Part shown: piece after piece, positions 14,726 through 48,393 of the stretch | How the letters are laid out: every line of letters begins with the position of its first letter | Position numbering within the stretch: the stretch's first letter is position 1 | Assembly (NCBI GenBank): GCA_016342685.1 | Contig: JAEINU010000002.1 | Span: 639,085-703,084, forward strand | DNA from: Bacteroidales bacterium | Lineage (GTDB): Bacteria; Bacteroidota; Bacteroidia; Bacteroidales; UBA12077 | Reading direction: 5' to 3' | Length of the DNA: 64,000 nt | Translations under genes and position numbers: made by a program | The notes under the pieces: generated by a model | Told to the model about the DNA's origin: nothing | The model's database searches: none | What the model saw: only the letters and a program-made list of their open reading frames with translations

Positions 14726-15445
14726 CTATTTCATTTTTACTTTACAAACATCTTTATTTGCCTTATTCTTAAGAATATAATAATACACACACTCTTCAAA
14801 GCTTTTATTTACGGTAAAGATATCGTTCAGTTTTAATTCAGTGAGAAAATTTATTTCAAATTCGCTTATATTTATATTTTCTTCCGAAAAATATGAGTCT
14901 AGAATCCATCTAACATAAGTTGCATTGTTTACATGCTTATTTACATCGAGATCGCTATAATAGACTTTCCTTTTATCCAATTCTGCTAAATCACCTTGGA
15001 ATGGTACCTTTCCAAGCACTTTCGCAATAGCATTTTCTTTGAAGAAATTCTCATGAATAAAATTGAATTGCTCTAAACGCTTTGGGCGTTTTGTACTCTG
15101 ATCTAGTATTAGCCAATAACTTGTTGCTCTAGCAACAATCTTACCTTGATTAAATATCTGAAAATCGCGAATAGCAAATAAACCATCTATGCCTTTGGGC
15201 CAAGTTTTTATTTCTATATCATCTTTCCACTCGGGATATTCATTAATCTCGATATAAATTTTAGACAACACCCAAAATGCATTTTGCTTCTCTAAATCTT
15301 CAAAGCCAAATTCATTTGCTTGGGCATTTTCCCATGCACATTCTTGTAAAAGGTGAAATATTGTTGGCAAAGTTAATTTGCCGTTATGGTCTGTATCGTA
15401 AGATTTTATTTTGAAATTATAAATACCAAAAGGAAATTTTAACAT
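14726..15445 (-). CDS. Acyl-ACP thioesterase (FatA/FatB-like double hotdog)
   Basis: This 239-residue protein of the acyl-ACP thioesterase family (PF01643) releases fatty acids from acyl carrier protein. The N-terminal hotdog contains YDTDHNGKLTLPTIFHLLQE and FWVLSKIYIEINEYPEW. The second hotdog has YYSDLDVNKHVNNATYVRWI, where the Asn and His of HVNN are the catalytic region. The start codon immediately follows the stop codon of the HlyD gene with no gap, so the two are translationally coupled and this is the last gene of the exporter operon. Its link to peptide export is unexplained; it may simply share a transcript. Confidence 0.92.
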   Translation of the reverse strand: MLKFPFGIYNFKIKSYDTDHNGKLTLPTIFHLLQECAWENAQANEFGFEDLEKQNAFWVLSKIYIEINEYPEWKDDIEIKTWPKGIDGLFAIRDFQIFNQGKIVARATSYWLILDQSTKRPKRLEQFNFIHENFFKENAIAKVLGKVPFQGDLAELDKRKVYYSDLDVNKHVNNATYVRWILDSYFSEENINISEFEINFLTELKLNDIFTVNKSFEECVYYYILKNKANKDVCKVKMK

Positions 15446-16771
15446 CTAATTGTTTTTTTGCCCAAACTTAGTATTTTTCTTTAAAATAAGATTCAATGGT
15501 CGTACTATTCTTCTTAAAAGACTCAAATCTTCTGTAATAATTTCGGCACTACCATTCATTTCTTGCTTAAATTCAAGGTCTATGCCATAAAATGTGGTTA
15601 GCCCATTATTCAGCTTAATCTCAACAGTATAAAAATCATTACTTGGAGCCAGTGAAATTGAACTAACATGTCCCTGAACCATCCCAAATTCCATGTAAGG
15701 ATAATTTGCAAATTGGATATTTGCCTGTTGTCCGTTCTTAACTTTTCCTGCACCCTGAAAATTCAGTTTAACCTTTCCAATAATCTCTCCCTCATCTGCC
15801 GGAATAATCGTCATAACAGTTTCTCCTGCTATGACCGATTGATTTTCGTTCCAATATTGATTGAAAGTTACTTTACCTTCTGTAGCTGCTGTTAAAACAA
15901 ACTGATATTTCCATGTGCCAATTGCCGATTTTAGATTCTCAATGGATTCTTCGATTAATAAAGACTGATCAGATAATTGCTTTTCTTTCTGTAATTCGAG
16001 TTCTAAAATATTTTGATTTAAACTTTCTATTTGTAACTCAACATTGGTAATTGAAATCTTAATTTGCTCATAATTATATTGCTTGGAAATTAAAAGTGAC
16101 TTTGATTTTTCGACATCGGCATCGGATAATAAACCTTGAGAATGTAAGTTAGAATCTCTTTTATACTGTTTTTCAGTTAAAAAAGATTCTTCCTCCAATA
16201 AATTACTCTGAATTATAAGGTTCCTAGAATAAATATCATACTTTTTTAACTCCTGTTTGTACAAAACAATCTTTTTACTGTGATAGTCGAGTTTAAGAAT
16301 TCTATTATACTCATCGATATATTTTATAAGATTAGCATAGATAGACTGCACACTACCTAAAGTATAACCACTTTTAAAACTATTAACAATAAGATTGAAA
16401 TTATTAGGTAAAATAAAATCGTCTAATTTCAATTCAAGCTCCTTTACATCCACATATTTTGCAGGATTTTCTATTACTGCTAGCACTTGATTTTTTGACA
16501 CTAAATCATTATTTGCAACCAACAAATTTTGAATTTTACCTGTAGATTTTGTCAAAACAGGTGCTGGAGGGTTTTCTGTAGTTAATATAATCTCTGCCGA
16601 GACAATATCAGGATATCTAAAAAAAGCACTCCCAATAATTATTATACTAACAACAAAGAAAACAATAGTAATTCCCCAACGAATAATCCATTTAGGAGGG
16701 CGAGTTAATATTTCCTGTACCGTACTTGATCGCAATTCGATTCGTTCTATTTCTTCGTTTTTTAATTCCAT
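15446..16771 (-). CDS. HlyD-family membrane fusion protein of the peptide exporter
   Basis: This 441-residue adaptor has one transmembrane helix (WGITIVFFVVSIIIIGSAFF, residues ~32-52), a split biotinyl-lipoyl domain (GKIQNLLVANNDLVSKNQVLA and TAATEGKVTFNQYWNENQSV), a long alpha-hairpin coiled coil (residues ~130-285) and a C-terminal beta-barrel (GQQANIQFANYPYMEFGMVQGHV). It bridges the inner-membrane ABC exporter encoded just upstream (18 nt away) to an outer-membrane channel such as TolC, which is not in the window. The C39 transporter/HlyD pair is the usual export system for GG-leader peptides. Confidence 0.93.
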   Translation of the reverse strand: MELKNEEIERIELRSSTVQEILTRPPKWIIRWGITIVFFVVSIIIIGSAFFRYPDIVSAEIILTTENPPAPVLTKSTGKIQNLLVANNDLVSKNQVLAVIENPAKYVDVKELELKLDDFILPNNFNLIVNSFKSGYTLGSVQSIYANLIKYIDEYNRILKLDYHSKKIVLYKQELKKYDIYSRNLIIQSNLLEEESFLTEKQYKRDSNLHSQGLLSDADVEKSKSLLISKQYNYEQIKISITNVELQIESLNQNILELELQKEKQLSDQSLLIEESIENLKSAIGTWKYQFVLTAATEGKVTFNQYWNENQSVIAGETVMTIIPADEGEIIGKVKLNFQGAGKVKNGQQANIQFANYPYMEFGMVQGHVSSISLAPSNDFYTVEIKLNNGLTTFYGIDLEFKQEMNGSAEIITEDLSLLRRIVRPLNLILKKNTKFGQKNN

Positions 16772-16789
16772 AACACAAAAAGAAATTTC

Positions 16790-18991
16790 TTAGTTACCTA
16801 ATTCCAATTGATTTTTAACCAACTCGTAATACGAGCCTTTTAACTTTGTTAACTCAACATGAGTTCCCTTTTCTACAACCTTGCCCTTTTCGAGAACCAC
16901 AATTTGATCTGCATTTTTAACAGTGCTTAATCTGTGTGCAACAACAACAACAGTTTTTCCTTTAAAGAACTCATCCAGATTATCCATAATAATTCGTTCA
17001 TTGTTTGCATCTAAAGCATTTGTTGCCTCATCAAGAAATATAAATTCGGGATTTTTATATACAGCGCGTGCTATTAGTATTCTTTGCTTTTGCCCCTGAC
17101 TTAAGCCCACACCATTCTGACCAATCTTTGTATTATATCCTAGTGGTAATGATTCTATAAATTCCTGTATGTTTGCAACTTTTACCGCGTGCAATAATTT
17201 TTTTCGATCAGCAATCTCATCGGAAACTGATATATTATTGGCAATTGAATCTGAGAAAATAAAACCATCTTGCATTACAACACCACATTTATCTCTCCAC
17301 ATTCTGTTGCTAACATTATTTAAATACAAATCACCCAAATTAATCTTGCCTTTTGTTGGATTATAAAAACCGAGTAATAACTTAACCAAGGTTGTTTTAC
17401 CACTTCCGCTCGTTCCTACAATTGCAGTAATTTTCTTTTCGGGAATATTCAAATCTACGTCATCCAAAACAAATGGAGAATGCGGCCCCTCGTATTGAAA
17501 AGATAAATTCTCTAAATTCAAATCTCTATGCTCAGGAAGAATATCAATTTTAGGTTCTAAATCTGACTCCTCGTCTTCTTTTTTATGTATTTCCCCCAAA
17601 CGTTCTAAACTGATTTTTGCATCCTGTGTATCCTGCAAAAAGCTTATCATTTGATTTATTGGACTATTTAATTGCCCAATCATATATTGAACTGCCAACA
17701 TCATACCCAATGTCATGTTACCATCGATAACAGCTTTGGCGGCAATAAATGTGATAATTACATTCTTAATTTCGTTTATAAATACACCTCCCGCCTGTTG
17801 ATATTGATTTAACGACAAACTTGACATATTTACTTTAAACAACTTAGCCTGAATATTTTCCCACTCCCAACGCTTTTGTTTTTCGCAGTTATTCAGTTTT
17901 ATTTCTTGCATTCCAGTAATTAACTGAATTACATTGCTTTGATTATCGGACATTTGGGCGAAACGTCGGTTATCTATATCGCGGCGCTTTTTCATAAAAA
18001 CTAATACCCAAAATGTATACAGTGCACTACCTAACAAGAAAATGAGAAAGATATTGACATTATAAACAAGTAATACTGCTCCAAAAATTACTAAAGTGAA
18101 AAATGAAAATAGAATATTTAATGTCGATGATGTTAAGAAATTCTCGATTCGCTTATGATCTCCTATTCTTTGAATTAAATCACCAATCATTTTCGTATCA
18201 AAAAACGAAACAGGCAATTTCATAAGCTTTGTCAAGAAATCTGATATTAATGAAATATTAATTCTGGTTCCCAAATGCAGTAAAATCCAACTTCGTATAA
18301 ACTCAACCAAAGTACGCGAGAAAATCAAAACCAACTGAGCAATAATAATTAAAGTAACAAAGTTTAGATCTTGCGTGTTTATACCCTTATCGACTATGCT
18401 TTGTGTTAAAAATGGAAATATTAACTGTAATAAACTTCCTAATAGGAGACCTAGAAATAACTGTATTATTATTTTCTTGTATGGACGTAAATAGGAAAAT
18501 AAAAACTTAAATCCTGATTTATTAATTTTTTCATCCTCGGTTTGATAAAAATCGGGTGTAGGTTCCAACAGCAGACACAATCCTTTGTCTTCTCCTTCCG
18601 CTTTAGTTTTTTCCCAACCGGATAGGAATTCTTCTTTTGTAAAATTAATTAATCCTCTTGCGGGGTCGGAAACATGAACAATTATTTTTCCATTTCTTTT
18701 TTTAGTGATTTTGTATACAACTATAAAATGATTCTCGTTCCAATGAGCAATACAAGGCAAAGGAGCCTCATCTAATAACTTTTCAAAAGCGATCCTAACA
18801 CCCATTGATCGAAAACCAATTGCTTCTGCAGCATCGCTTATACCAAGCATGGAAACACCCTCACGGGTAATATAACTTTTATCTCGCAAAGTTTGCAAGG
18901 AATAGTTTTTGCCGTAATATTTTGCAATCATTCGTAAACAAGAAGGACCGCAATCCATAGCATCAAGTTGTTGAAAATAAGGAAATGGCAT
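16790..18991 (-). CDS. C39 peptidase-containing ABC transporter (leader-cleaving peptide exporter)
   Basis: This 733-residue PCAT-type exporter is complete. The N-terminal C39 cysteine peptidase has Cys13 in QLDAMDCGPSCLRMIAKYYG, His near 88 in HWNENHFIVVY, and Asp in VSDPARG, so the catalytic triad is present. The membrane domain spans about residues 165-460. The ATPase has Walker A GTSGSGKTT, Q-loop VVMQDGFIF, signature LSQGQKQRI and Walker B EFIFLDEATNALD. Such proteins cut precursor peptides after GG or GA and export the core. The three small GG/GA-type peptides in this window are obvious candidate substrates. It lies between an S41 peptidase gene and the HlyD gene. Confidence 0.96.
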   Translation of the reverse strand: MPFPYFQQLDAMDCGPSCLRMIAKYYGKNYSLQTLRDKSYITREGVSMLGISDAAEAIGFRSMGVRIAFEKLLDEAPLPCIAHWNENHFIVVYKITKKRNGKIIVHVSDPARGLINFTKEEFLSGWEKTKAEGEDKGLCLLLEPTPDFYQTEDEKINKSGFKFLFSYLRPYKKIIIQLFLGLLLGSLLQLIFPFLTQSIVDKGINTQDLNFVTLIIIAQLVLIFSRTLVEFIRSWILLHLGTRINISLISDFLTKLMKLPVSFFDTKMIGDLIQRIGDHKRIENFLTSSTLNILFSFFTLVIFGAVLLVYNVNIFLIFLLGSALYTFWVLVFMKKRRDIDNRRFAQMSDNQSNVIQLITGMQEIKLNNCEKQKRWEWENIQAKLFKVNMSSLSLNQYQQAGGVFINEIKNVIITFIAAKAVIDGNMTLGMMLAVQYMIGQLNSPINQMISFLQDTQDAKISLERLGEIHKKEDEESDLEPKIDILPEHRDLNLENLSFQYEGPHSPFVLDDVDLNIPEKKITAIVGTSGSGKTTLVKLLLGFYNPTKGKINLGDLYLNNVSNRMWRDKCGVVMQDGFIFSDSIANNISVSDEIADRKKLLHAVKVANIQEFIESLPLGYNTKIGQNGVGLSQGQKQRILIARAVYKNPEFIFLDEATNALDANNERIIMDNLDEFFKGKTVVVVAHRLSTVKNADQIVVLEKGKVVEKGTHVELTKLKGSYYELVKNQLELGN

Positions 18992-19067: not shown

Positions 19068-20426
19068 CTATTTATCTTTTAATATTTCAATTGCTTTTTC
19101 TAAAACCACATCATTACTCTTAATAATATTACCAATGGTTTCATTCACAATAACATCAGGAATAACTCCGTGATTTACAAACCTTTTTCCACTGTATGGA
19201 TAACAGATTCTGCGTGTACAAATTCGGCAGTAACCACCATTAGGCAAATTCGGCACTACCAGAGGCGAACCAGTAGAACCAGCTGTTTCCTGACCAATAA
19301 ACAAAGGTCGGTCGGGTACCTCATACATATTTACAAGAAAATCTTCTGCCGCAGAGAAAGTATACCGACCAATTAATACAACAACAGGTATATCAATACG
19401 CCTAATAGAATCTGGAACTTCGATGGTATCCGGTTCTACATAATGGACTTCTCTATTCTCAAGGTATCCCTGATATTCTTCTTTCCAGTTAGAATTTGCT
19501 TTTTTTACTCCATCATTTACTCGTGTTTCCCATCCATAATTAAGAAAACTTTTCTCCTTCGATAAAAGTGATTGTAAATACCAAGCTGCATTTGTACTTC
19601 CTCCCCCATTTCTGCGCAAATCAATAATCAATCCATTTGACTCATAAATCTCAGGCAAGTATTTACTAATATCTTGAATTGCAATATTTTCGGGATAGAA
19701 ACTTCTAATATTTAAATACGAAATATCTCCTTCCAATTTTTCAAGATCAACCATCTTTCTTCTTTTAGGAAACTTCATTCCCCAATAGTCATCTTCAGGA
19801 GTTCTTGTAGCTTCCCCATTTCTAGGCAATTGTATTTTTACGGTATCGCCTGTAGTTTTAACAATTGTGGCTTTAAAATCTTTCCATTTAAGATCCTGAT
19901 GAATCTTTTGAACCCCTTGCATCCATAGATGTTGCTTTGTTGATGCTGATATGTAAGGAAATATAGAATCTTGTAAAAATCTTTTGGTCCGAACTCCTGA
20001 TATTTTAATAACCTCGGCACCAACCCACGTTGAATCTAATATTGGATCTTTTAATACCCTCACTATATAAACCTTCTCACCTACATTGCTTAAATTCATA
20101 GAAAAATAATCTTTCCACAAATAGAACTGAGATTGATCTACAACGGCGGTATGTCCATCTCCAAAAGAGGCTACAAATTGTTTCAAAACTTGATAGTATT
20201 CGAAATCATTTTTCGATTCTTGTACTTTAGGAATGTAAGTTTTGTACAAGCTATCTGGATCAAATGTAACTTGATCCATGTTTACAAAATTGTACTTGAT
20301 CTCACTCCATACCTCACTTAAATAATATATTTTATCGTTAGTACTTATACTATCGGGTATTGATTGTGCTCTACTTGTTGAAATAACTATAAATAGAAGA
20401 ACTAAAACACTATATATTCTGCTCAT
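19068..20426 (-). CDS. S41-family (C-terminal-processing-like) peptidase, secreted
   Basis: A 452-residue exported protein with signal peptide MSRIYSVLVLLFIVISTSRA. The S41 core includes LIIDLRRNGGGSTNAAWYLQSLLS, then VVLIGRYTFSAAEDFLVN with the nucleophilic Ser of the FSAAE motif, and a terminal strand GVIPDVIVNETIG. S41 enzymes degrade or trim exported proteins in the periplasm. It belongs to the exporter transcription unit (small gene, S41, C39 transporter, HlyD) and could act on exported peptide or on leader fragments, although this is only inferred from context. A second, larger S41 protein is encoded at the head of the biosynthetic unit. Confidence 0.9.
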   Translation of the reverse strand: MSRIYSVLVLLFIVISTSRAQSIPDSISTNDKIYYLSEVWSEIKYNFVNMDQVTFDPDSLYKTYIPKVQESKNDFEYYQVLKQFVASFGDGHTAVVDQSQFYLWKDYFSMNLSNVGEKVYIVRVLKDPILDSTWVGAEVIKISGVRTKRFLQDSIFPYISASTKQHLWMQGVQKIHQDLKWKDFKATIVKTTGDTVKIQLPRNGEATRTPEDDYWGMKFPKRRKMVDLEKLEGDISYLNIRSFYPENIAIQDISKYLPEIYESNGLIIDLRRNGGGSTNAAWYLQSLLSKEKSFLNYGWETRVNDGVKKANSNWKEEYQGYLENREVHYVEPDTIEVPDSIRRIDIPVVVLIGRYTFSAAEDFLVNMYEVPDRPLFIGQETAGSTGSPLVVPNLPNGGYCRICTRRICYPYSGKRFVNHGVIPDVIVNETIGNIIKSNDVVLEKAIEILKDK

Positions 20427-21107: not shown

Positions 21108-21779
21108 CTATTCGTCATTTGAACATATTTTCCACAATCTTTCTTTATGCAATTCTCTGTCGAAAGAATTTGCATAATCAGAAATTGTCTCTATCCACGC
21201 AAGATCAAGCTGTGATTTGTAGCAATTAATTAGCTTGAGTTTCTCCTGAATATCTATATCCTCCACAATTTCATTTTCCGATAAATCTCTATATATCTCC
21301 AATCTTTTGTTCAAATTGTTATCGAAAGGAAAGTATGGCATATCTTCGTATATAAGCAAGTTAAAGGTTTTTATATTTGCTATTTCGAAAGCTATTCTCT
21401 GAATTGCAATATGATCGGGGTGCATAATTCCCATCGGAAAATAAAAAGTATCTTCTGAGTTTATTTCTTTATCAATCCTATTATAGATAAGGTTATAATC
21501 ACCCTTGTCGGGCTCAGACTCACAACTTTCAAAATCCCAAAACTCTACGTTATATTTACAGCTATTTATTACCGCCTTTTCTTCTGCTTTTCGAACCTCC
21601 ATAATATTCTTACCCGAACGAATTATTTCATTATAATAATCCGACTGCGGATTTATCCAATTACTTTTAGAAAAGATGTAAATAACTTTAAGTTCCTTAC
21701 CCTTTCTAATCAAATTCAGAATGTGTCCTCCTATTGATAAAATTGCATCATCGATATGTGGAGAGAATATTACATTCAT
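21108..21779 (-). CDS. PIG-L/LmbE-family deacetylase
   Basis: This 223-residue zinc-dependent deacetylase-like protein has the first metal motif SPHIDDAILSIGGHI (family PHPDDExxGxGG; the Glu is Ala here but both Asp remain) and the second motif MGIMHPDHIAIQ (HPDH). Family members remove acetyl groups from GlcNAc-containing molecules, for example in GPI anchor, mycothiol and teicoplanin-type pathways. Coming 12 nt after a glycosyltransferase gene, it may deacetylate an amino sugar attached to the peptide. It is the last gene of the long biosynthetic unit. Confidence 0.87.
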   Translation of the reverse strand: MNVIFSPHIDDAILSIGGHILNLIRKGKELKVIYIFSKSNWINPQSDYYNEIIRSGKNIMEVRKAEEKAVINSCKYNVEFWDFESCESEPDKGDYNLIYNRIDKEINSEDTFYFPMGIMHPDHIAIQRIAFEIANIKTFNLLIYEDMPYFPFDNNLNKRLEIYRDLSENEIVEDIDIQEKLKLINCYKSQLDLAWIETISDYANSFDRELHKERLWKICSNDE

Positions 21780-21791: not shown

Positions 21792-23315
21792 TTAGCTTAT
21801 TAAACTATTAATATTAGATTGTTCTAAATTAGAGACATTCTCTAATTCAATTGTATTATCTAATATAAATTCATAATCCAGAATTTCTTGTTTATCCTCT
21901 TTCTTGTAAAAAGAATATTTCTTTTCTCTTTTTTGCTTATCGAGATAACCAAAGTGCTTTAGCACAATTCCGGAATGCAATTCATTATTAACATATGGCG
22001 TTGTACTGAAATGAAGTTTATTATCGGAATAAAGTTGTAGATTTCCAACATTCCGGAACATTCTCCATCGGTAAAATACCCCAGAAAGCATTGTCCTATT
22101 TGTATCGAACATATCGGTTCTATACTGAGATTCGTTATTCCATAAGTTAACAAAATTAAAAGCGATTGTATCTATTTTAGAATTATCGACATAATCAAAA
22201 ACAGTATCAAAACGCTCGTCGAATCTTTCATCAACATCTATAAAATAAAACCATTCACAGTTAAAAAAAGAAGCCAATTTTAAAAGAATGTTTCGGTTTT
22301 CTAAATCGTTAAACTCGGTTCTTTTTTTAGAAACTTTAAGCTTAATAATATCATGATTTGCAGAAGTATAAGTACTATCTGAACTGCCATCATCCAAAAG
22401 AATAACTCCATCGCAATGATCTTTTATATGCTCTAGAAAACTTTCTATCCGCTCAATTTCGTTATATGCCGGAACCAATGCCAATGCTCGATAATTTTTA
22501 TCTAAAGAAGCTAATTGCAAGCTTGATTTACTAAAAGAGTTGAGATATGTATTGCATTGTTCTTTTTTAACTAAATATGTTTCTGTTGGATAGATTAATT
22601 TTATTATCTCTTGGTCGAGACGAATATTATTGCCCGATTTTTTTTGAGGGTATACTATTTCCTTAAGCTTTTCTGTATTTACTTTTTGAATTTGAATTTT
22701 GGTTTTTGTATTTAGATATACATTATTCGAAGTATGAATAAATGTTTTATAATTACTCAAATGCAACCGTCTTTCAATGTTTGTTAAACATAGTATAAAA
22801 TTGCTTTCATTATAGATTTCATCTTCGACAAGTAATACATCTTTTTTTCTGAATAAAAACGACCACTCTGCATCGAAATTACCAGTAATATTAAGTTCTT
22901 CCACGGAAGAACGTCCGTTATAAAAATCAGAAGAATCTATTATTTTAACAATAGATTTTTTTTCCTGTTTTAATAAAATACGAGCATTCACAAGTGCATC
23001 TACACTTGGCACAGATTGGCAAAAACAAACATTTTTCTTACTTGAATATTTACCAATATTTTTGGCAACAAATGAAATATTTATAGGATTTTCATTATCG
23101 CTTAATATAATTTTAAGATCAATAAAAGGATATTTCTTTACTAATTCTAAGGCTTCATTTTTAAGTTCGCTTGTTTCAAGCATTAAAACAAGCTCGAAAC
23201 AATTGATTTTATAGTGTTCATTTATCTTATCCAGAACTTCGGTTAGATCCTCATTATTCGTGACCAAATAAAATATAGTAATATCAATAAACTCTTTAAT
23301 TCGCTTGATTAACAT
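21792..23315 (-). CDS. Glycosyltransferase family 2-like protein with duplicated GT-A region
   Basis: In this 507-residue protein the C-terminal half (from about residue 279) is a clear GT2 domain: ALVPAYNEIERIESFLEHI, VILLDDGSSDST and the metal-binding FIDVDERFD. The N-terminal ~270 residues look like a second, degenerate GT-A fold (ITIFYLVTNNEDLTEVLDKI then NISFVAKNIGKYSSKKNVCF). A helical C-terminal tail follows. It would transfer a sugar from a nucleotide donor; sequence does not reveal which. Packed between a GT-B-like/RRE protein and a PIG-L deacetylase inside the RiPP unit, it suggests glycosylation of the peptide product. Confidence 0.83.
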   Translation of the reverse strand: MLIKRIKEFIDITIFYLVTNNEDLTEVLDKINEHYKINCFELVLMLETSELKNEALELVKKYPFIDLKIILSDNENPINISFVAKNIGKYSSKKNVCFCQSVPSVDALVNARILLKQEKKSIVKIIDSSDFYNGRSSVEELNITGNFDAEWSFLFRKKDVLLVEDEIYNESNFILCLTNIERRLHLSNYKTFIHTSNNVYLNTKTKIQIQKVNTEKLKEIVYPQKKSGNNIRLDQEIIKLIYPTETYLVKKEQCNTYLNSFSKSSLQLASLDKNYRALALVPAYNEIERIESFLEHIKDHCDGVILLDDGSSDSTYTSANHDIIKLKVSKKRTEFNDLENRNILLKLASFFNCEWFYFIDVDERFDERFDTVFDYVDNSKIDTIAFNFVNLWNNESQYRTDMFDTNRTMLSGVFYRWRMFRNVGNLQLYSDNKLHFSTTPYVNNELHSGIVLKHFGYLDKQKREKKYSFYKKEDKQEILDYEFILDNTIELENVSNLEQSNINSLIS

Positions 23316-34954: not shown

Positions 34955-35012
34955 ATCTATAAATTGGGAGGAGTTTTATTATTTACTGTCTAGGTTAATA
35001 AAAAATAAATGT

Positions 35013-35189: not shown

Positions 35190-35219
35190 AATTTTAGATT
35201 TAAAAATTAATAAATTATA

Positions 35220-35276
35220 CTGCTTCTTGTGTTAAGCAGATTGTGTTAAACAGTCTATAAAAGACTCCTCCCAATA
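35220..35276 (-). promoter_or_regulatory. Structured leader region of the precursor mRNA
   Basis: The 126-nt gap between lanC and the precursor gene contains two small hairpins on the minus strand: AGTCT-N5-AGACT (35252-35266) and CTGCTT-N8-AAGCAG (35220-35239). It also holds a 14-bp-spaced direct repeat of TTAACACAA (35227-35236, 35241-35250). These could be processing or translation-control structures that raise precursor yield relative to the enzymes. No TAnnTTTG box was found, so a separate promoter is not established. Confidence 0.4.
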
Positions 35277-35315
35277 TTTTATTTCTTGTTTATATTTTTG
35301 TTTTCTTCTGTATTT

Positions 35316-40226: not shown

Positions 40227-40232
40227 ATTACT

Positions 40233-42485
40233 TTATTGTTTCCTTAATACTTCCAATCCTTTAGTAAGGATTTCATCCTCATTCCTCTTTACTCCTTCAG
40301 CTGTGCGGGACACCACAACATCGGGTATAATTCCTATACCTTGGAATACATCTCCATTTCCAAATTGTATACGCTGACCTGTAAATGATGTCTCTCCTCC
40401 ACCAGGTAAATGAATTTTTGCAATCTCGCCATCGGTACCTTGTGTTTGCTCTCCAACAAAAATTGTATTTGGCAAAGCTTTTAAAGCAATGGCAATATCT
40501 TCGGGACGACTAATCATTGTTTTATCTATCAATACAACAATTGGTTTATTGTATGAAAAAGATGTGTCTGGAACAATTTCAGTAATTTCTATTTGTTTAA
40601 TATTTGAGTTTTGTGCTGAAACTATAGGCACTTCATCAATTCGTGCATTTATTTTTTCAGAACAGAGCATTTGTAAGAATTTCCCATAATCAGCTGTAGG
40701 ATAAGAGTTACGAAGATCAATTACTAAACCTTCTGTATTTTTCATGCTCAGCAATTTTGTTTCAAGCTCAGAAGCCTCTGTTATCAAAGCCAAATTAAGA
40801 TATCCTATATTGCTTTTAAATATTTTGTGAGCATCTCTATTTTCACCAAATCCCATAAACTGAAAAATATATGTAGTACGAGGCAACTCAATATTCCTTT
40901 GCTTTTTTCCATCGCTAATTCCTAGTTTCATTAAGCTTCCAGAAGCTCCAATAAAATAACCAGGATTAATTACGGTTGCAATAAGGCCTTGTTTATTACT
41001 CGAAGAAATTTTCCGTTTCTCTTTTTCTAGGATTTCACTAATTGATAATCCATCAATTGATAATAGCTCATCGCCAATATTGATATCGGCGTTTATAGAA
41101 CTGTCTATTCCTGTCACTAAAACCTTACCATCAATCCATTCGAAGTTTATAGGTGTAACAAAGATCTTTGAATAGTCTAAAATTGATGGATGAAAAGTAG
41201 ATACATGAGAATCATTTAAACAAGACATCATCTCCTGAATTAACTCGTAATATTCTTTATCAGATTTTGTTTTTTGTGCTGACACTAAATACTTTTCCAA
41301 AGAACTCTCCCAATTTGTTGTTAACAAATCTTTATATACATAAAAGTACTTTACTATAGTCCATGTTTTTATTACTCCCAATATTTTCTCTTCCTGTGTA
41401 ATCTCTTTATTAGAAGAACTATATTTAGAAGGCAATATTTCAAATGGAAATTGCCTAATTTCATTTAGAACTTTAGGTTCCGATTGAATAAATTTCAGAA
41501 TTCTTTCGTTATTAATAACTGAAGATTCGGAATTGAATGGAAAATCTGAAACTGATTCATTAATTAATGAACCCGGATTTAAAATAAATTCAAGATTCTC
41601 GAATTGGTACTTCTTAAATAAGGAAAACTGAGAATTAAAGATCTTCCCTGAATTCTCATTAATAACAAAAGAATTTGATCTTGTCAACTTTAAGTCATTA
41701 AGAAGAGAATGGTAGTATGAAAGGAAACTATTGTTTGTTACAAAGTATACGGGTCTTTCAATGGTAACAAATTCATTAAATTTAAATTCAGGAAGGTATT
41801 GCATCATTTCTTGAGAATACTCCTTAAATGGTTTTAGCTTCCCATTATCTTTTAATTGCTTATCGTTACTTGCTAGTTTCCACCTTTGTTCATAAAACCA
41901 CCAATCATTATACTCATCCCATCCGAAATGCTCACGAGTAACGTTTAAGCCTAAAGTGATTGGCTCTGATATAATCATTGAAATTAAATAATCGAAAAAT
42001 GTATTTGTATGCGCATCAATAGCTAGTTCATTTTGAATTCGCAAATCTATTACTAATGACTTATCCGAACTTCTGTCAACAACTGCTTTGTTGAAATAGT
42101 CTAAACTGCCAACATCCGAAAGCATCTCTTCTGTAATCTTAATATAATCGAATAAATTATTTAATTCAATTAGATTTCTTTCTTTCTTTTCATCACCATA
42201 TGTACTTTGAACACAAGTAAATGGATCCTCTAAGCTAGATAGTAATGAGGAATTTATTGCTTTAATAAATTCTTTATCTGTATTTATACTTTTTATTTGC
42301 GGTAAAAATTCAACAAGTTGTTTTTCCCATTCAACACTTCTATCCATTCTTATAATTGATGGATGAAAAAGATATGTTTCTCCCCAAATAGTAGAAATGG
42401 TTTTTAATTTTTTTATATCGTAATTCTGAGCCTTGGCAGAATGTATTAATAGAATACAAAAAAATGTAATAAAATATTTTTTCAT
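40233..42485 (-). CDS. Large S41-family peptidase, secreted
   Basis: A 750-residue exported protein with signal peptide MKKYFITFFCILLIHSAKA. A C-terminal S41 domain contains GLVIDLRNSYPTADYGKFLQ, IVVLIDKTMISRPEDIAIAL with the presumed nucleophilic Ser, GEQTQGTDGEIAKIHLPGGG, and the end strand GIIPDVVVSRTAEG. The N-terminal ~330 residues look like a second S41-like unit without the Ser motif. A PDZ-like part (VTGIDSSINADINIGDELLS) lies in the middle. It heads the biosynthetic unit behind the operator at 42.6 kb and is likely coregulated with it. Its target may be the exported peptide or a self-protection substrate. Confidence 0.85.
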   Translation of the reverse strand: MKKYFITFFCILLIHSAKAQNYDIKKLKTISTIWGETYLFHPSIIRMDRSVEWEKQLVEFLPQIKSINTDKEFIKAINSSLLSSLEDPFTCVQSTYGDEKKERNLIELNNLFDYIKITEEMLSDVGSLDYFNKAVVDRSSDKSLVIDLRIQNELAIDAHTNTFFDYLISMIISEPITLGLNVTREHFGWDEYNDWWFYEQRWKLASNDKQLKDNGKLKPFKEYSQEMMQYLPEFKFNEFVTIERPVYFVTNNSFLSYYHSLLNDLKLTRSNSFVINENSGKIFNSQFSLFKKYQFENLEFILNPGSLINESVSDFPFNSESSVINNERILKFIQSEPKVLNEIRQFPFEILPSKYSSSNKEITQEEKILGVIKTWTIVKYFYVYKDLLTTNWESSLEKYLVSAQKTKSDKEYYELIQEMMSCLNDSHVSTFHPSILDYSKIFVTPINFEWIDGKVLVTGIDSSINADINIGDELLSIDGLSISEILEKEKRKISSSNKQGLIATVINPGYFIGASGSLMKLGISDGKKQRNIELPRTTYIFQFMGFGENRDAHKIFKSNIGYLNLALITEASELETKLLSMKNTEGLVIDLRNSYPTADYGKFLQMLCSEKINARIDEVPIVSAQNSNIKQIEITEIVPDTSFSYNKPIVVLIDKTMISRPEDIAIALKALPNTIFVGEQTQGTDGEIAKIHLPGGGETSFTGQRIQFGNGDVFQGIGIIPDVVVSRTAEGVKRNEDEILTKGLEVLRKQ

Positions 42486-42841: not shown

Positions 42842-43006
42842 TTATGCATGAGGTGTCGGATCCCAACATACACCAGCAGGAGCACAAACTAAAACTCCAG
42901 GACAATCCTCATCTGTCTCACATGGATATGCTTTTCCACCATTTATTGTTCTTTGTTCTGTTTTACTAAGCATTTTAGCTCCTTCTAATTTTTTTAAATC
43001 TCTCAT
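42842..43006 (-). CDS. GG-leader peptide with four evenly spaced cysteines (54 aa)
   Basis: The leader MRDLKKLEGAKMLSKTEQRT/INGG is the common Bacteroidota bacteriocin-like type (KLxGxKxLSKxEQxxINGG), with a double-glycine site at 23-24. The core of 30 residues begins KAYPCETDEDCPGVLVCAPA and continues GVCWDPTPHA; its Cys residues 29, 35, 41 and 47 have CX5CX5CX5C spacing. The VKOR-thioredoxin gene 95 nt upstream suggests that these form disulfides, with cleavage and export by the C39 transporter at 16.8-19.0 kb. It shows no lanthipeptide leader box. It could be a bacteriocin, a signal peptide or a small toxin. Confidence 0.83.
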   Translation of the reverse strand: MRDLKKLEGAKMLSKTEQRTINGGKAYPCETDEDCPGVLVCAPAGVCWDPTPHA

Positions 43007-43093: not shown

Positions 43094-43144
43094 ATTCTAA
43101 CTTAATCTTCAAGTATATCATCAATAAAATATAATAGATCCATT
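43094..43144 (-). repeat. Original copy of the VKOR 3'-end repeat
   Basis: This is the coding copy of the repeat described at 42741-42792; it includes the last ~14 codons (MDLLYFIDDILED) and the stop of the VKOR gene. Confidence 0.85.
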
Positions 43145-44670
43145 CTATTATATTCTTTTGGGAAAGGCCTTTCATTAACAATTATCTCAGGTGTAAAATT
43201 GATTTTCTTCTTTAGACACCATTGTTTTTCAATATTTAAAACCTTAATGTATTCGGGTTCGTAAACCTCACCCCATTTTGTTAGCCATTTATCGGGTGTT
43301 AATTTTCCATATATGTCATGCATTGCTTGTAAGCATAGTTCTTTATTAACATTAAAAAGATCAATTAACTTTAATGCTATTAGCGTATCATAACTTTTCC
43401 TATCAAGGTGTATGTTAAATCTAATAGTCAAGCTTATTTCATTATTATTTAGCTTTAATATTTCCTCAAATAAATGATGAACTTCTTTACAATGTCCACA
43501 TAGAGGATTGGTTACTATAATGATTTTCAATTTCCCCTTAAGATTTCCAAAAGATATTTCACTTATTTCGTCGACTTTTGTATCGATTTGATTTGATTTA
43601 GCATTTAATGCTTCATATATAAAATAATTTCGCTTAAACTTAGCGAACTCCAATTTTATATTTTTTAACTCACTCTCCTTCTTAAGTTTAGGCAAAAAGG
43701 ATTGCCAAAATCCAGTAACAACTAAAAAACAACATACAACTACAAATGCTTCTTGTAAACTATATTCTGCAAATAAATTTGTTAAATCAGCATAATAAAG
43801 AGATCCTGCTTGCAACCATAAAATCAAAATAATACTTAAACAAAGAGTACACCACTTCTTCACAACAAAATATTGATATAATATTGAGTAAAATGTAAAT
43901 GGAATTGCCAAAAGTGAAATTGCTATTATAAGATTGCAGGAATTATTATCTGATAATAATATCCAAGAAAGAATTAAGGAAACAAAATAGATTATTCCTA
44001 TATCACTAAAATTAAGGAAATTAAAAAACTTAGACCCTTTTGATTTCAAGACATCATCACAATTGATCTTTTCTATGTTTCCTGAACAAAATTTATCGGC
44101 TACTATAGAATCAAAACCCAGTTCATGTTTTATAATTACAACACTCATTCCCAAACCTACAAGTGAAAGTATAAAGTGTAATACGTGAAATGATTCAGGT
44201 TTATTTATTACAAATAAACCAACAACTGCAATTAAAGCAAAAAACACAAAAGCCTGTTTTAACCAAATTGCGCAAGACCCTTTGGTTTTTTTATATTCTT
44301 TATCTTTTTCAATAACAACTAATACACCTGTCCATAAAATCATAAAATCTTTTATACTTATGGATTCTGATTTATTATTATAATATAAAATTACATTTTG
44401 GACTTTCAAAGACACCAAAACTATCTCATCTATACTTTTATTTTTGATATGTGCTATAAATGATTCTGGTAAATGTTTTATTAATTCTTCCGTTTTTGGA
44501 ACTTCGAGTGCAACATTTTCAACTTTAAAATGATCTAAAACTCCTGTTAAAGAATGTAAACTTGGATAAGATGGGTGACTTAATAACTGAAATTTAAGTT
44601 CACTCTCATTCACCTTAATATCATACTTTTTAAGAAGTTTTTGCAATATAAAAAACAATGAATTTTTCAA
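43102..44670 (-). CDS. VKOR-thioredoxin fusion with degenerate C39-like N-terminal domain
   Basis: This is a 522-residue membrane protein. Residues ~1-135 resemble C39 peptidase-like domains (LLSHPSYPSLHSLTGVLDHF, ...DFMILWTGVLVVIE) but lack the catalytic Cys, so binding rather than cutting is likely. A vitamin K epoxide reductase domain follows, with Cys pairs near 193/202 (CSGNIEKINC) and in KKWCTLC near 271, and five membrane segments. The C-terminal thioredoxin fold has VTNPLCGHCKEVHHLF (CGHC near 391). It should oxidise cysteines to disulfides outside the membrane. Start is TTG at 44670: an in-frame TAG lies just upstream and no ATG occurs before the conserved segment. Its neighbour, the four-Cys peptide, is the likely client. 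Confidence 0.9.
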   Translation of the reverse strand: MKNSLFFILQKLLKKYDIKVNESELKFQLLSHPSYPSLHSLTGVLDHFKVENVALEVPKTEELIKHLPESFIAHIKNKSIDEIVLVSLKVQNVILYYNNKSESISIKDFMILWTGVLVVIEKDKEYKKTKGSCAIWLKQAFVFFALIAVVGLFVINKPESFHVLHFILSLVGLGMSVVIIKHELGFDSIVADKFCSGNIEKINCDDVLKSKGSKFFNFLNFSDIGIIYFVSLILSWILLSDNNSCNLIIAISLLAIPFTFYSILYQYFVVKKWCTLCLSIILILWLQAGSLYYADLTNLFAEYSLQEAFVVVCCFLVVTGFWQSFLPKLKKESELKNIKLEFAKFKRNYFIYEALNAKSNQIDTKVDEISEISFGNLKGKLKIIIVTNPLCGHCKEVHHLFEEILKLNNNEISLTIRFNIHLDRKSYDTLIALKLIDLFNVNKELCLQAMHDIYGKLTPDKWLTKWGEVYEPEYIKVLNIEKQWCLKKKINFTPEIIVNERPFPKEYNRMDLLYFIDDILED

Positions 44671-44918: not shown

Positions 44919-45287
44919 TTACCAAAAGTCAAATTTGTTTTTAACAAATTCTATAAAATCTTTATATTTCCTGTGAGCAATTTTCAGTTCTATTCCGTCA
45001 TGAAGTAACACGGATTTCTCCGCATTTACATTTATTCCCTGCAAAAAATCCACATTAATAATTATGGATTTATGTATTTTAAAAAACTTTTCATCTGGGA
45101 GCTTCTCTTCAATCTGCGTTAGACATTTCTTCACCAAATATTCTTCACCTTCGCAACAATATGTTTTTGTCTTTCGTCCGACTGACTCCAAATAAACAAT
45201 TTCGCGAAGTTTTTTTACATGCAATAAATTATCGTTGTTTGAATTAACTATTATCTTCTTATCGATCATATAATTTGTCGAAATCAT
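44919..45287 (-). CDS. Stand-alone LytTR DNA-binding protein 1
   Basis: A 122-residue protein consisting only of a LytTR domain, with no receiver or membrane part. Typical segments are KKLREIVYLESVGRKTKTYC, FFKIHKSIIINVDFLQGINV and SVLLHDGIELKIAHRKYKDF. It is the last and most canonical of three tandem LytTR genes. Such proteins bind promoter direct repeats. Without a receiver, phosphorylation control is unlikely, and activity is perhaps set by abundance or by a partner protein, as in streptococcal LytTR regulatory systems. Confidence 0.9.
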   Translation of the reverse strand: MISTNYMIDKKIIVNSNNDNLLHVKKLREIVYLESVGRKTKTYCCEGEEYLVKKCLTQIEEKLPDEKFFKIHKSIIINVDFLQGINVNAEKSVLLHDGIELKIAHRKYKDFIEFVKNKFDFW

Positions 45288-45321
45288 TTTTAATAAAAAA
45301 AACCGGGTGTCGTAATTAGTA

Positions 45322-45654
45322 TTAAACGCAATATCTGTTTCTCAAGAACCATTTCAATTCTGGATATCTTTTAAAATCAAGCTCTAACTCTATTCCATTA
45401 TGGAGTAGAACATTCTTATTTGAGCTAACTCGAATTTTTTTAAGATGATCAATATTAACAATAAATGACTCACTAATTCTGAAAAATTTCTGAAGAGGAA
45501 GCTTTTCTTGTATAAGATCTAAATCATTTTCAATTAATTTCTCCTCCCCATTTGAATAATAAGCCATTGAAAAATTACCTATTGATTTTAAATAAATAAT
45601 TGGCTTAACATCCGTAAGACCCTCTAATTTACTACTAATTGCTACGCTTTCCAT
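45322..45654 (-). CDS. Stand-alone LytTR DNA-binding protein 2
   Basis: A 110-residue LytTR-only protein (VKPIIYLKSIGNFSMAYYSN, FFRISESFIVNIDHLKKIRV, VLLHNGIELELDFKRYPEL), clearly paralogous to copy 1 (both have VLLHxGIEL). It lies 34 nt upstream of copy 1, with a stable hairpin in front of it. It may form heterodimers with its neighbours. The three half sites per operator and three LytTR proteins invite a one-to-one reading, which is speculation. Confidence 0.89.
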   Translation of the reverse strand: MESVAISSKLEGLTDVKPIIYLKSIGNFSMAYYSNGEEKLIENDLDLIQEKLPLQKFFRISESFIVNIDHLKKIRVSSNKNVLLHNGIELELDFKRYPELKWFLRNRYCV

Positions 45655-45682
45655 ACTTCATCATTTATAAGGTTAACAATTT

Positions 45683-45713
45683 ACCATCTCCAGGATTTTA
45701 ACATGGAGATGGT
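45683..45713 (-). terminator. Hairpin between LytTR 3 and LytTR 2
   Basis: A perfect 9-bp stem ACCATCTCC/GGAGATGGT with a 13-nt loop occupies the 91-nt gap. No T tract follows on the minus strand, so it may act as an mRNA-processing or attenuation element rather than a full terminator. Confidence 0.5.
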
Positions 45714-45745
45714 ACTAACTAAACTAACAATAACAAACCTTTATT

Positions 45746-46099
45746 CTAAACTAACTCATGTAACTCATATACTTCGCGAAGATTTTCAAATAACTCTTCG
45801 CGTTTATTGTAATTTACAAATATCTCTTTCCCGTTTTCCATTATTACTTTAGAAGCATTAGATGGGAAAACCACCTGAATACATTTCAAATTAACAAGTA
45901 ATCGATTATTAAATTTAAAGAAACCTTGTTCCAGCAAAACGTATTCTATTTCTTGCATTGTAAGTAATAACTCTATGGTTTGATTATTTATTAAGGTAAC
46001 TCTAGTAAATTGAAGACTAGATTCAATATATAATATTTTATTGCAATCTATAGTTGTTTTACCATTCTCTGTTAGTACATTTATGTTATAACTATTCAT
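45746..46099 (-). CDS. Stand-alone LytTR DNA-binding protein 3 (divergent)
   Basis: A 117-residue LytTR-like protein (INVLTENGKTTIDCNKILYI, GFFKFNNRLLVNLKCIQVVF, VIMENGKEIFVNYNKREELF). The usual R-I-H-x-S-x-I-V-N segment is FKFNNRLLVN and the SRR segment is NYNK, so DNA contact residues are altered. It may bind a different site or modulate copies 1 and 2. It begins 27 nt after the kinase-like gene and is probably cotranscribed with it. Confidence 0.8.
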   Translation of the reverse strand: MNSYNINVLTENGKTTIDCNKILYIESSLQFTRVTLINNQTIELLLTMQEIEYVLLEQGFFKFNNRLLVNLKCIQVVFPSNASKVIMENGKEIFVNYNKREELFENLREVYELHELV

Positions 46100-46126
46100 A
46101 TCTCACAGGTATTTATATTAACTATT

Positions 46127-46870
46127 TTACTTATTAAATTTTATTGGTATACAAAAAGAATATTCTTGCTTCTCAGAGTTGGTGCATAATTTACCTTGCA
46201 TCCTTTCAACAGCTTCAGACAATACTTTGAAATTAAAAAAATCAAAAGAATCATTATCAGCAGCAGAATATAAGTCAGGTTCATTTGCTAAGTCATCAAG
46301 ATTTAATTTCTCGGCTGTTGGTCTTATGAAAACACTCACACTAATGTCATCAATAATTCTATATCCTAATTCATATTCATTTATCGGATATTTTTTACTT
46401 ACGATATTTACAAGTCTTTGAATTGCTTTTTTAAACAAAATAGAATCTGTTTCCAATTCAAGGTCTTTAACTTTAGAATCCCAAACCAACATTAAACTTA
46501 TGTCAGTATCATTATTTTCAATTTTATGATTGTAAAAATCTTCGGTATAATCCCAGATTAATTCATTTAAATCACAAGATTTAATTCTTACTTTGTAATT
46601 ATCTGCTTCGAATTGCGAGAGGTCCATCAAATTATCGACAAACTGCATTAATAAGTTACCACCATTTAAAATTCCTTGGATGTATTTCATTTGCTTGTGA
46701 TTCACAAGTTCTTTTAAAACTAACAACTTAGAAAATCCCATAATAGCATTTAATGGAGTTCTTATCCCATGCGATATGTGAGAAAGAAAGCTTAAACGTT
46801 CATATTCGTATTTTTCAACGTTTTTTTCTTTCAGACTTATGCTACTTGCATTTTTAATACTATTTTTCAT
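46127..46870 (-). CDS. Soluble HisKA protein with degraded ATPase domain
   Basis: This 247-residue protein lacks membrane segments and sensor domain. The dimerisation/phospho-acceptor helix is intact (LSFLSHISHGIRTPLNAIMG then FSKL). The following region keeps the general size of an HATPase domain (to CIPIKFNK), but the N-box, the DxGxG loop and the GxGLGL loop are missing. It therefore probably cannot autophosphorylate by itself and may accept phosphate from another kinase, act as phosphatase, or sequester LytTR proteins. It leads the LytTR tandem genes. Confidence 0.75.
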   Translation of the reverse strand: MKNSIKNASSISLKEKNVEKYEYERLSFLSHISHGIRTPLNAIMGFSKLLVLKELVNHKQMKYIQGILNGGNLLMQFVDNLMDLSQFEADNYKVRIKSCDLNELIWDYTEDFYNHKIENNDTDISLMLVWDSKVKDLELETDSILFKKAIQRLVNIVSKKYPINEYELGYRIIDDISVSVFIRPTAEKLNLDDLANEPDLYSAADNDSFDFFNFKVLSEAVERMQGKLCTNSEKQEYSFCIPIKFNK

Positions 46871-47034
46871 CTGCTAAACTTTATTATTTATATTCAGATG
46901 ATTCCAAAAGTTTTTAAACTTTTCTTATTGAATGAGTGGGGCTCTCTTCGATAGAAATAAGAACATGAATCAAGTCCATATTTCGCATTGCTTTATCGAG
47001 TCTCAATCGGATTCATCCATTTTTATCAAATAGA

Positions 47035-47787
47035 TCAATTCTCAATATCTCTTAACACTTTATTCGCCTTATCTGTATAAGTGCTTTGTTCATTAATTAA
47101 TTCTTTTAGTAAATATACAGCGTCATTGTCACTTCCTGTTTTAATATAACACATTGACAAATACCACTTTGCTTGTTCTATAAACAAATTGTCGTTATTT
47201 ACAATTATCTTACTAAAGGATGTACTTGCTTTTTGATATTTTTCCTCTTCCATATAACTTATACCAGTATATAATTTTACTGACATGTCATCACCATGCG
47301 AACTCACAACTTCTTCAAAAAGAACTAAAGCATTTTCAAAGTCTCTATCTTCATAACGTTCTAAGGCTTTGAGCAGAATACGATCAACTTCTGTATTGCC
47401 AGATCTATATGTCACGGTTGCATCGTACGGAGCATAGTATTTTTCATACACAGCGTTATTATCAAGATCTGGATGAGCCAACTTCTGAACAATTCCACCT
47501 GTTGCAACTAATAATGCAATTGAAGCTGCAGCGTAATAAACTTTACGTTTTGCAAATACCGTAGGAATCCTACGAACTTTCGTTTCCTCCTCATTGTACA
47601 TATAATTCATAGTTTCACGAAGCGCAATTACATCATCTTCTTTTATTGAGTTGTTTATTTCTAAACTCAAATTATAATTGTGCTTTATATCATCGTCGGT
47701 TGAAAGCAACTTCTCAAAATTAATTAGCTCGGAGCCTTCTAATTCACCATCGATGTATTTTTCAATTACCTCAAAATTATCCATCAT
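47035..47787 (-). CDS. Anti-sigma-like membrane protein with TPR repeats
   Basis: A 250-residue protein. The N-terminal ~75 residues (EKYIDGELEGSELINFEKLL, STDDDIKHNYNLSLEINNSI) are anti-sigma-like. One transmembrane helix follows (KVYYAAASIALLVATGGIVQ, ~88-107), then three TPR units (ALVLFEEVVSSHGDDMSVKL, QAKWYLSMCYIKTGSDNDAV). It is a paralogue of the protein encoded at 51.4-52.1 kb, which sits beside its own ECF sigma gene; here no sigma gene is adjacent. It might partner that sigma factor too, or be a leftover. It is followed on the same strand by the kinase-like gene, 164 nt away. Confidence 0.75.
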   Translation of the reverse strand: MMDNFEVIEKYIDGELEGSELINFEKLLSTDDDIKHNYNLSLEINNSIKEDDVIALRETMNYMYNEEETKVRRIPTVFAKRKVYYAAASIALLVATGGIVQKLAHPDLDNNAVYEKYYAPYDATVTYRSGNTEVDRILLKALERYEDRDFENALVLFEEVVSSHGDDMSVKLYTGISYMEEEKYQKASTSFSKIIVNNDNLFIEQAKWYLSMCYIKTGSDNDAVYLLKELINEQSTYTDKANKVLRDIEN

Positions 47788-47887: not shown

Positions 47888-47923
47888 AAATGATCGGCTC
47901 AGCTGGCACCGAGCTGATCATTT
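47888..47923 (-). terminator. Strong hairpin downstream of the peptide genes
   Basis: AAATGATCGGCTC pairs with GAGCTGATCATTT (one G-T pair) around a 10-nt loop. It lies after the peptide relic and before the anti-sigma-like gene, with modest T-richness on both sides, and could terminate the minus-strand peptide transcript. Confidence 0.6.
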
Positions 47924-47963
47924 CTGTTTTAAACGCATATTTGAATCGAAAGGGAGTACTAAT

Positions 47964-48137
47964 TTAACCATTGTTCATTTCAGGCTTATTTTTTTGGAGA
48001 TCATTAACATCTTCTTGTTCTCCATTTATTTTGATCATTGGAATAATATCAATGATACCTGAAAAATTCTTTATTCCTTTTTATTTCTTAATCCTGTAAT
48101 TACTATTTAAAGTTTTATAATTCTGAATAAATATCAT
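47964..48137 (-). pseudogene. Decayed paralogue of the proline-rich GG-leader peptide
   Basis: Translation on the minus strand gives NYKTLNSNYRIKK, then a TAA stop, then in the same frame KGIKNFSGIIDIIPMIKING and EQEDVNDLQKN. This aligns with the intact peptide upstream (MKTLRSIFRLEETKKSIGNF SG..., then GGQDEDL), sharing KTL, NFSG, ID and the QxxD pattern. The ATG, the GG pair (now NG) and frame continuity are all damaged. It shows that the peptide gene was once duplicated in tandem. The N-terminal alignment includes a one-residue gap, so the relationship is clear mainly in the NFSG-to-QED part. Confidence 0.65.
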
Positions 48138-48225
48138 CTAATGTCTTTAATCAAAAGTTCACTCTGTTTTAATTTTAGGAGTCTATTTATTAACTTCTCT
48201 TTTAATACCCCTAACCGTTAGTAAT

Positions 48226-48393
48226 CTAATTTTTTGGTGGAGGTGGAGGTGTTACAGGAATTGGAGGTGCCCATAAATCCTCATCTTGTCCGCCTCTAAC
48301 AGTTAACATCGAATTAAAATCTATATTACCTGAAAAATTACCGATTGATTTTTTTGTTTCTTCTAATCTAAAAATGCTCCTTAATGTTTTCAT
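48226..48393 (-). CDS. GG-leader proline-rich small peptide (55 aa)
   Basis: Minus-strand frame with ATG at 48393 and stop TAG at 48226. MKTLRSIFRLEETKKSIGNF continues to a GG pair at residues 34-35 (SMLTVRGG), typical of C39-processed precursors. The predicted 20-residue product QDEDLWAPPIPVTPPPPPKN is acidic then proline-rich, with no Cys. A damaged paralogue lies 89 nt downstream. It might be an exported signal peptide sensed by the regulators at 44.9-46.9 kb, or another bacteriocin; neither is shown. No enzyme gene is immediately adjacent. Confidence 0.7.
   Translation of the reverse strand: MKTLRSIFRLEETKKSIGNFSGNIDFNSMLTVRGGQDEDLWAPPIPVTPPPPPKN

Follow-up and report, generated by a model that had tools for sequence, protein, structure and literature searches.

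The 64,000-nucleotide window analysed here (contig JAEINU010000002.1 of a Bacteroidales bacterium, positions 639,085 to 703,084, from a 4.77 Mb genome of 54 contigs) carries a gene island of 25,927 bp. This island probably encodes one hybrid ribosomally synthesised and post-translationally modified peptide (RiPP), in which a lanthionine would be combined with YcaO-dependent backbone changes, amidines being favoured, with radical modification and perhaps with a sugar. A single hybrid product is supported because one operon holds one lanthipeptide-type precursor. The operon (minus strand, 21108–42485) has 15 co-directional genes, from an S41 peptidase gene (S41b) through a PIG-L type deacetylase gene and including the precursor gene lanA (Table 1). 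It contains a split LanB, LanC, four YcaO proteins, a B12-type and two small radical S-adenosylmethionine (SAM) proteins and a family 2 glycosyltransferase (GT2). Twelve of the 14 junctions overlap or are shorter than 15 nt; the other two, 126 and 58 nt, flank lanA. A sequence-only reading of the window had pointed to this locus and its gene observations are, overall, confirmed in place by family matches. Its range, 14726–48393, does hold the cluster, but mixes the 25.9 kb cargo with flanking genes that are shared by the genus. The cluster is real and unusual: the families assigned are known ones, and their combination, the apparent pseudo-YcaO among them and the exchangeable slot in which they lie look new within the searches made.

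The class I lanthipeptide core proposed in that reading is supported by matches above cut-off to PF04738 for LanB-N, to PF14028 and TIGR03891 for LanB-C and to PF05147 for LanC. Solved structures matched by LanB-N are 9g04 and NisB. The LanC motifs WCHG and CHGTAG contain the zinc-binding residues expected of this family. LanB-N and LanB-C would dehydrate Ser and Thr through glutamylation and elimination, and LanC would then close at least one lanthionine or methyllanthionine ring.

The sequence-only reading named these enzymes correctly but not the precursor gene, lanA. The LanA leader starts MKRKQLNKKLEIS and runs to VKG, the whole peptide reading MKRKQLNKKLEISTEALTNLEQEQVKG and then AAAGCYNTTSAMRVHSYCVPATKLSVASSFE. 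After residue 31 there are two Cys (32 and 45) and eight Ser/Thr. The expected core has no Ser/Thr ahead of Cys32 and four between Cys32 and Cys45, therefore a ring in the usual direction could form only via Cys45. Cys32 might instead enter a ring of reversed direction, become an azoline or take part in a radical link. LanA-like leaders are present in the LanB stretches L041 and L042. A LanA query against its own genome at E ≤ 1 gave no match beyond lanA itself, and no other precursor was found in the operon. The inverted repeat ATTGGGAGGAGT (34963–34977 and 35261–35275) encloses lanA; it is only suggestive, since 21 of 100 random windows contain a comparable repeat at some position. The minus-strand RNA of 34955–35315 has a predicted fold with a z-score of -4.64, and none of 100 shuffles was equally stable.

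All four proteins read as YcaO in the sequence-only reading match PF02624, at 99–172 bits (cut-off 25.7). YcaO2, YcaO3 and YcaO4 are 34%, 24% and 29% identical to YcaO1. The ATP/Mg-site positions considered here are in E. coli numbering and were mapped by way of the Klebsiella protein. Of these, YcaO1, 2 and 4 retain K9, E75, E78, R79, N187, E191, E199, E202, R203, R286 and E290, and their deviations S16T and S184C are the commonest letters in the aligned set. R203K or E290K is found in YcaO3 alone among 100 aligned rows. Because ATP/Mg-site residues have been lost, YcaO3 is probably a non-catalytic partner, perhaps the subunit of a heterodimer that would hold the precursor. An AlphaFold model of YcaO2 (32 sequences, mean pLDDT 86.4) has E. 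coli YcaO, 4q86, as its closest fold (E 1.9e-26, TM 0.71).

It is distinctly improbable that the four YcaOs are degenerating or redundant copies, old duplicates kept without separate roles. The lost residues of YcaO3 fit such a history, as does the approximately unbiased (AU) test, in which a single clade for the four was not rejected (p 0.133, 27 chosen rows). Against this, YcaO1, 2 and 4 keep the checked site residues at a mutual identity of about 29–34%, and none of the four frames is truncated; since old divergence coincides with retained sites, separate roles can be argued for these three. In a quick tree of 100 rows the four YcaOs are scattered inside one set of 47 rows (SH-aLRT 99), with YcaO3 on a very long branch. 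The AU result on the chosen rows does not decide between local duplication and separate acquisition. YcaOs of another family, f135 (L034, L035, L036, L044 and L045), have N187, E191 and R286 changed in the alignment, and may be non-catalytic or bind ATP differently; each adjoins a gene weakly matching the window's B12-type radical SAM protein.

YcaO1, 2 and 4 would use ATP to activate backbone amides, the nucleophile most likely being ammonia or an amine, which would yield amidines. A C-terminal CxxCxxCx5C is present in all four window YcaOs, and a similar Cys tail (last gap 4–7) in 71 of 89 YcaO open frames from 78 related loci; it was not found in the Klebsiella, Catenovulum or Azoarcus YcaOs or in five f135 proteins. 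This tail may bind an Fe-S-type cluster. Amidines are favoured because the window YcaOs share a Cys-tailed clade with L077, a locus with an Itf-like precursor: within the 47-row set, L077 encodes, one after another, a YcaO, a short peptide with the end WTITF, a C39 ABC protein and a radical SAM protein. In Bacteroides, ItfB is a YcaO that forms a backbone amidine (PMC11002830, PMC10352776). It is less likely, though possible, that the YcaOs of a hybrid pathway install thioamides or azolines, a proposal that overlaps with the hybrid product preferred here. E. coli YcaO, the closest solved fold, thioamidates ribosomal protein uL16 (PMC13063428), and the LanA core is Ser/Thr-rich with two Cys. 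However, the Cys tail is missing from the Klebsiella homologue of the E. coli enzyme, and among the listed family matches of the operon proteins there is neither a TfuA nor a ThiF-type partner nor an azoline dehydrogenase. The window YcaOs score 41–60 bits against the SagD-type model TIGR03604 (cut-off 219.25) and 111–205 bits, where more than 700 would be expected, against NF040716, the S12/uL16 accessory YcaO.

The three radical SAM proteins claimed for the locus each match PF04055 (33.8–52.0 bits, cut-off 29.5). For the largest, the B12-binding match is partial and below cut-off (17.3 against 32.1 bits). TIGR03975 spans nearly the whole of this protein yet is also below cut-off (175.9 against 281.85 bits), and its CX4CX2C spacing recurs in L051. 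The protein is likely to be a RiPP C-methyltransferase that would methylate carbon, and a further change would come from the pair of small radical SAM proteins. The best solved match of radical SAM protein b is the peptide epimerase YydG, which is weak (E 5.7e-7). The SPASM label given to the two small proteins had to be dropped: no Pfam SPASM match was found in any of the three, and SPASM-named NCBIfam models match weakly, over the radical SAM core. Of two proteins described as glycosyltransferase-like, the GT2 holds up (PF00535), but the 405-residue product of 23328–24545 has no family above cut-off. It has no meaningful solved-structure match (best E 0.92), and its single-sequence structure model is unusable (mean pLDDT 31.9). 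Across 295 genomes of the class it has, apart from itself, six matches, all of them short and weak (E 1.9e-5 to 6.3e-4). The PIG-L deacetylase, the VKOR protein and the C39 exporter were read correctly. GT2 and PIG-L could together add a deacetylated amino sugar. The product set out in the sequence-only reading, with thioether, YcaO, radical and sugar chemistry, is partly supported as a hybrid from a single operon, but YcaO3 has lost ATP/Mg-site residues and one of the sugar enzymes is without a family.

The combination is rare, as shown by the co-occurrence search proposed for it. When 395 genomes of the phylum were searched at E ≤ 1e-5, PF02624 was found in 20 and PF04738 in 35. Both occurred in the window's own genome (G000) and in G312, where they are on different contigs, and linkage was seen in 1 of 395, the window's own. 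Among 147 relatives, 6 have YcaO (E ≤ 0.001) and 14 have LanB-N (E ≤ 1e-10), both being present in G000 and in G106, on separate contigs of the latter; these belong to a draft genome and non-linkage there is therefore not proved. Among the titles and abstract openings listed in literature searches, none describes a cluster of this make-up.

Several observations weigh against a single hybrid product. LanB profiles built from control stretches had no match (E ≤ 0.01) in the 78 loci that surround the closest YcaO relatives; these loci came from the 80 top-ranking of 266 confirmed stretches, and 35 of them measure at least 20 kb. The lack of LanB matches suggests that the YcaO and LanB halves are not normally partners. 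The control comprised 17 stretches from 13 places, some overlapping and mostly fetched with LanB-N, which all 17 contain by construction; LanB-C was recovered in 16 and LanC in only 9 of these 17, many of which are short. The LanA leader falls just below the cut-off of the class I lanthipeptide leader model NF038153 (21.4 against 22 bits), its expected cleavage site reads KG-A rather than GG, and the peptide ends in SSFE rather than in the Ile-Thr-Phe of Itf-type precursors. The window YcaO type would be equated with the amidine-forming ItfB through its clade and a neighbour, not through the ItfB sequence itself. The absence is limited to LanB, because a deeper LanC profile gave three matches in the 78 loci: L078 (below the Pfam cut-off), L105 (a LanM) and L121 (E 8.3e-4). 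YcaO copies number at most two per locus, in 11 of the 78. Lanthionine enzymes thus meet this YcaO type elsewhere, and a split LanB with four YcaOs was seen here alone.

Other features of these loci can be described. L078 (9956–21778, a Prevotellaceae metagenome-assembled genome, MAG) has a YcaO, an outer-membrane protein, a radical SAM and a B12-type radical SAM-like protein, together with a weak LanC-like piece, a GT2 and a C39 ABC protein that shares 62% identity with that of the window. Candidate precursor ends near this YcaO subfamily (L046–L123) form many unrelated families, including DETGRPVL (L085, L091), CGLGCxGIVG (L053, L081), WCDRC/WCDHC...APLD (L070, L071, L092, L094) and GGTLQEIIVTP-like ends (L068, L074, L079). 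By our reading, candidate precursors in L104, L105, L107 and L118 are Nif11-like.

The island occupies a chromosomal slot whose two sides are common to the genus, as sampled in 20 genomes including the window's own. One side has the C39 ABC gene and, where covered, HlyD and thioesterase genes (the thioesterase is missing in G017); the other, where covered, has LytTR (one to three genes), HisKA and TPR-like proteins. Of the 19 other genomes, 15 have a counterpart of the C39 ABC protein that is 85–89% identical. Both sides can be read in 13 genomes, of which eight (G003, G004, G007, G013, G015, G017, G018 and G019) have only 82–275 bp between the C39 ABC gene and the nearest LytTR gene, and five have 3.3–25.9 kb. 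These five cargos are a radical SAM gene, one unknown and a double-glycine peptide (G016, 3.3 kb); VKOR, Cys-rich double-glycine peptides and one unknown (G006, 4.8 kb); VKOR, double-glycine peptides, a SPASM radical SAM protein and a CAAX-type protease (G010, 6.1 kb); LanB-LanB-LanC, radical SAM and further genes (G012, 22.3 kb); and the window's own (25.9 kb). The count leaves out G011, with extra genes at the C39 ABC gene and then a contig end, G008 and G014, as well as G001, G002, G005 and G009, which are 71–79% complete and gave no C39 ABC match. LanB and LanC of G012 are 29–33% identical to those of the window, against 86% for C39 ABC (61% for HlyD and 62% for thioesterase). The exporter is therefore resident, and the modification genes differ. 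The cargo of the window was found in no related genome examined. No tRNA gene other than tmRNA was found in the window; the tmRNA gene lies at 5708–6107, with tag GENNYALAA. Beyond the slot, 18 of the 20 genomes, the window's included, yield matches (E ≤ 1e-60) to the CHAT protein of 48596–51397, some being only distant paralogues or fragments.

A double-glycine peptide with an LWPP-type end adjoins the TPR-like gene. Fourteen such peptides from 14 genomes, the window's included, were aligned, having been selected by a pattern requiring acidic residues and such an end; that of G003 has no W and that of G012 ends LWPD. As LytTR and HisKA proteins adjoin it, this peptide may serve in signalling, with the C39 ABC protein as its exporter. 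Within the island, a four-Cys double-glycine peptide adjoins the VKOR gene, whose product has counterparts 52% and 54% identical in two sister genomes. VKOR and double-glycine Cys peptides are found together in G010 and G006 too, and this pair is probably a module separate from the big operon, the island thus comprising at least two.

It is unlikely that two or more independent pathways share the operon, with LanB and LanC turning LanA into a plain lanthipeptide and the YcaO and radical SAM proteins having a different substrate, for example the four-Cys peptide, the LWPP-type peptide or the product of a distant gene. The modular island would fit this, as would the YcaO-LanB linkage seen in no other genome examined and the LanB-LanB-LanC set without YcaO in the same slot of a sister genome (L042). 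However, lanA and lanC sit among the YcaO and radical SAM genes, with spacings from -17 to 126 nt, the operon has yielded no second precursor, and sister genomes whose slot showed no YcaO nevertheless have LWPP-type and Cys-rich peptides.

For the single hybrid product, the C39 ABC/HlyD pair would cleave the leader and export the peptide, and the S41 peptidases may finish it. The N-terminus of the S41 peptidase encoded 6 nt before YcaO4 looks, by eye, like a signal sequence, and an S41 gene precedes YcaO in L103 as well. Production is likely to be coupled to the LytTR/HisKA block and to the co-encoded LWPP-type peptide. A promoter pattern scan gave 2 matches where 6.75 were expected. The exporter is common to the genus and four sister cargos also carry radical SAM, LanB/LanC or VKOR genes. 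A constant exporter with differing modification sets makes the assembly of RiPP pathways from modules testable within one genus. If the hybrid reading is true, thioether and backbone-amide chemistry are combined on a single peptide, and three apparently active YcaO paralogues with an apparent pseudo-YcaO on one substrate would allow site selection to be studied. A bolder proposal, which is rather doubtful, is that of a new RiPP class: lanthionine would occur together with several backbone amidines, whose sites would be selected by three separate active YcaOs and one non-catalytic YcaO, and radical and sugar modifications would be added. The genes would lie in a slot in which the genus exchanges complete modification sets next to a single resident exporter and signalling peptide.

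Table 1. Features of the island and its flanks, in window coordinates.
Feature	Position	Strand	Remarks
HlyD and C39 ABC export pair	15446–18991	-	C39 ABC 16790–18991; common to genus
Cargo island	18992–44918	.	25,927 bp, C39 ABC to LytTR block
S41 peptidase	19068–20426	-	PF03572
PIG-L type deacetylase	21108–21779	-	PF02585 46.8 bits (cut-off 28.2)
GT2	21792–23315	-	PF00535 28.6 bits (cut-off 23.3)
405-residue operon protein	23328–24545	-	no family above cut-off
LanB-C, elimination part of split LanB	24520–25425	-	PF14028 191 bits; TIGR03891 177.6 (cut-off 48.45)
LanB-N, glutamylation part of split LanB	25422–27602	-	PF04738 330.1 bits
YcaO1	27608–29476	-	PF02624; checked ATP/Mg-site residues intact; CxxCxxCx5C tail
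B12-type radical SAM protein	29487–31316	-	CX4CX2C; TIGR03975 175.9 bits
YcaO2	31331–33175	-	PF02624; checked ATP/Mg-site residues intact
YcaO3	33188–34954	-	divergent; K9 missing, N187K, E191D, R203K, E290K (E. coli numbering)
lanA, sole precursor gene of operon	35013–35189	-	58 aa; NF038153 21.4 bits (cut-off 22)
LanC cyclase	35316–36506	-	PF05147 138.4 bits; motifs AHGMSG, WCHG, CHGTAG
Radical SAM protein a	36510–37451	-	PF04055; CX3CX2C; 30% identical to b
Radical SAM protein b	37448–38404	-	PF04055; CX3CX2C
YcaO4	38388–40226	-	PF02624; checked ATP/Mg-site residues intact
S41 peptidase (S41b, first operon gene)	40233–42485	-	PF03572; 6 nt before YcaO4
Four-Cys peptide, double-glycine leader	42842–43006	-	adjoins VKOR
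VKOR with C39-like and thioredoxin-like parts	43102–44670	-	VKOR 59.6, C39 31.1 bits, both above cut-offs
Three LytTR, HisKA, TPR-like proteins	44919–47787	-	TPR just below Pfam cut-off; block common to genus
Double-glycine peptide, acidic residues and LWAPP end	48226–48393	-	counterparts in 13 sister genomes

Pinensin-type class I lanthipeptides resemble the window in having a split LanB and LanC in Bacteroidota, to which the window adds four YcaO and three radical SAM proteins. The pinensin cluster is not known to have YcaO or radical SAM proteins, and thiopeptide and goadsporin clusters are not known to have a LanC. The leader motif LxLxKx5L named in PMC7268733 is approached by LanA as LxIxTx5L. 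Thiopeptides and goadsporin share a split LanB and YcaO with the window (PMC10676384), whereas their azole chemistry involves a dehydrogenase, a family for which no match was found here. The pairing is rare in the samples, as the sequence-only reading held, but lanthionine-type dehydratases with YcaO are known from thiopeptides, goadsporin and dehydrazoles (PMC10676384, PMC7268733), and in L105 a LanM stands beside two YcaOs. The dehydrazoles (carnazolamide) come close in that a dehydratase, a YcaO and a radical SAM protein act on a single Chryseobacterium peptide; they differ in that their dehydratase is of the LanM type and lacks a zinc site, their single YcaO is accompanied by a dehydrogenase and their leader is nitrile-hydratase-like (PMC10676384). 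One cluster with three ycaO genes is mentioned in PMC8120280.

The Itf pathway of Bacteroides thetaiotaomicron has, like the window, a YcaO with an Fe-S-recognition-type tail, a radical SAM protein and a C39 exporter (PMC11002830, PMC10352776). In the accessible parts of these papers ItfD joins Trp to Ile, a single YcaO is described and LanB or LanC is not mentioned; ItfB is fused to the Fe-S-recognition domain and the precursor ends Ile-Thr-Phe (PMC11002830). An Itf-type pathway would also be expected to have a SPASM radical SAM protein, and Pfam gave no SPASM match for the three radical SAM proteins of the operon. L105, a Desulfoscipio geothermicus MAG, has two Cys-tailed YcaOs, a B12-type radical SAM protein and a lanthionine synthetase consecutively (8128–16976). 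It differs from the window in that the synthetase is a class II LanM (DUF4135 plus a LanC domain) and in its Nif11-like precursors.

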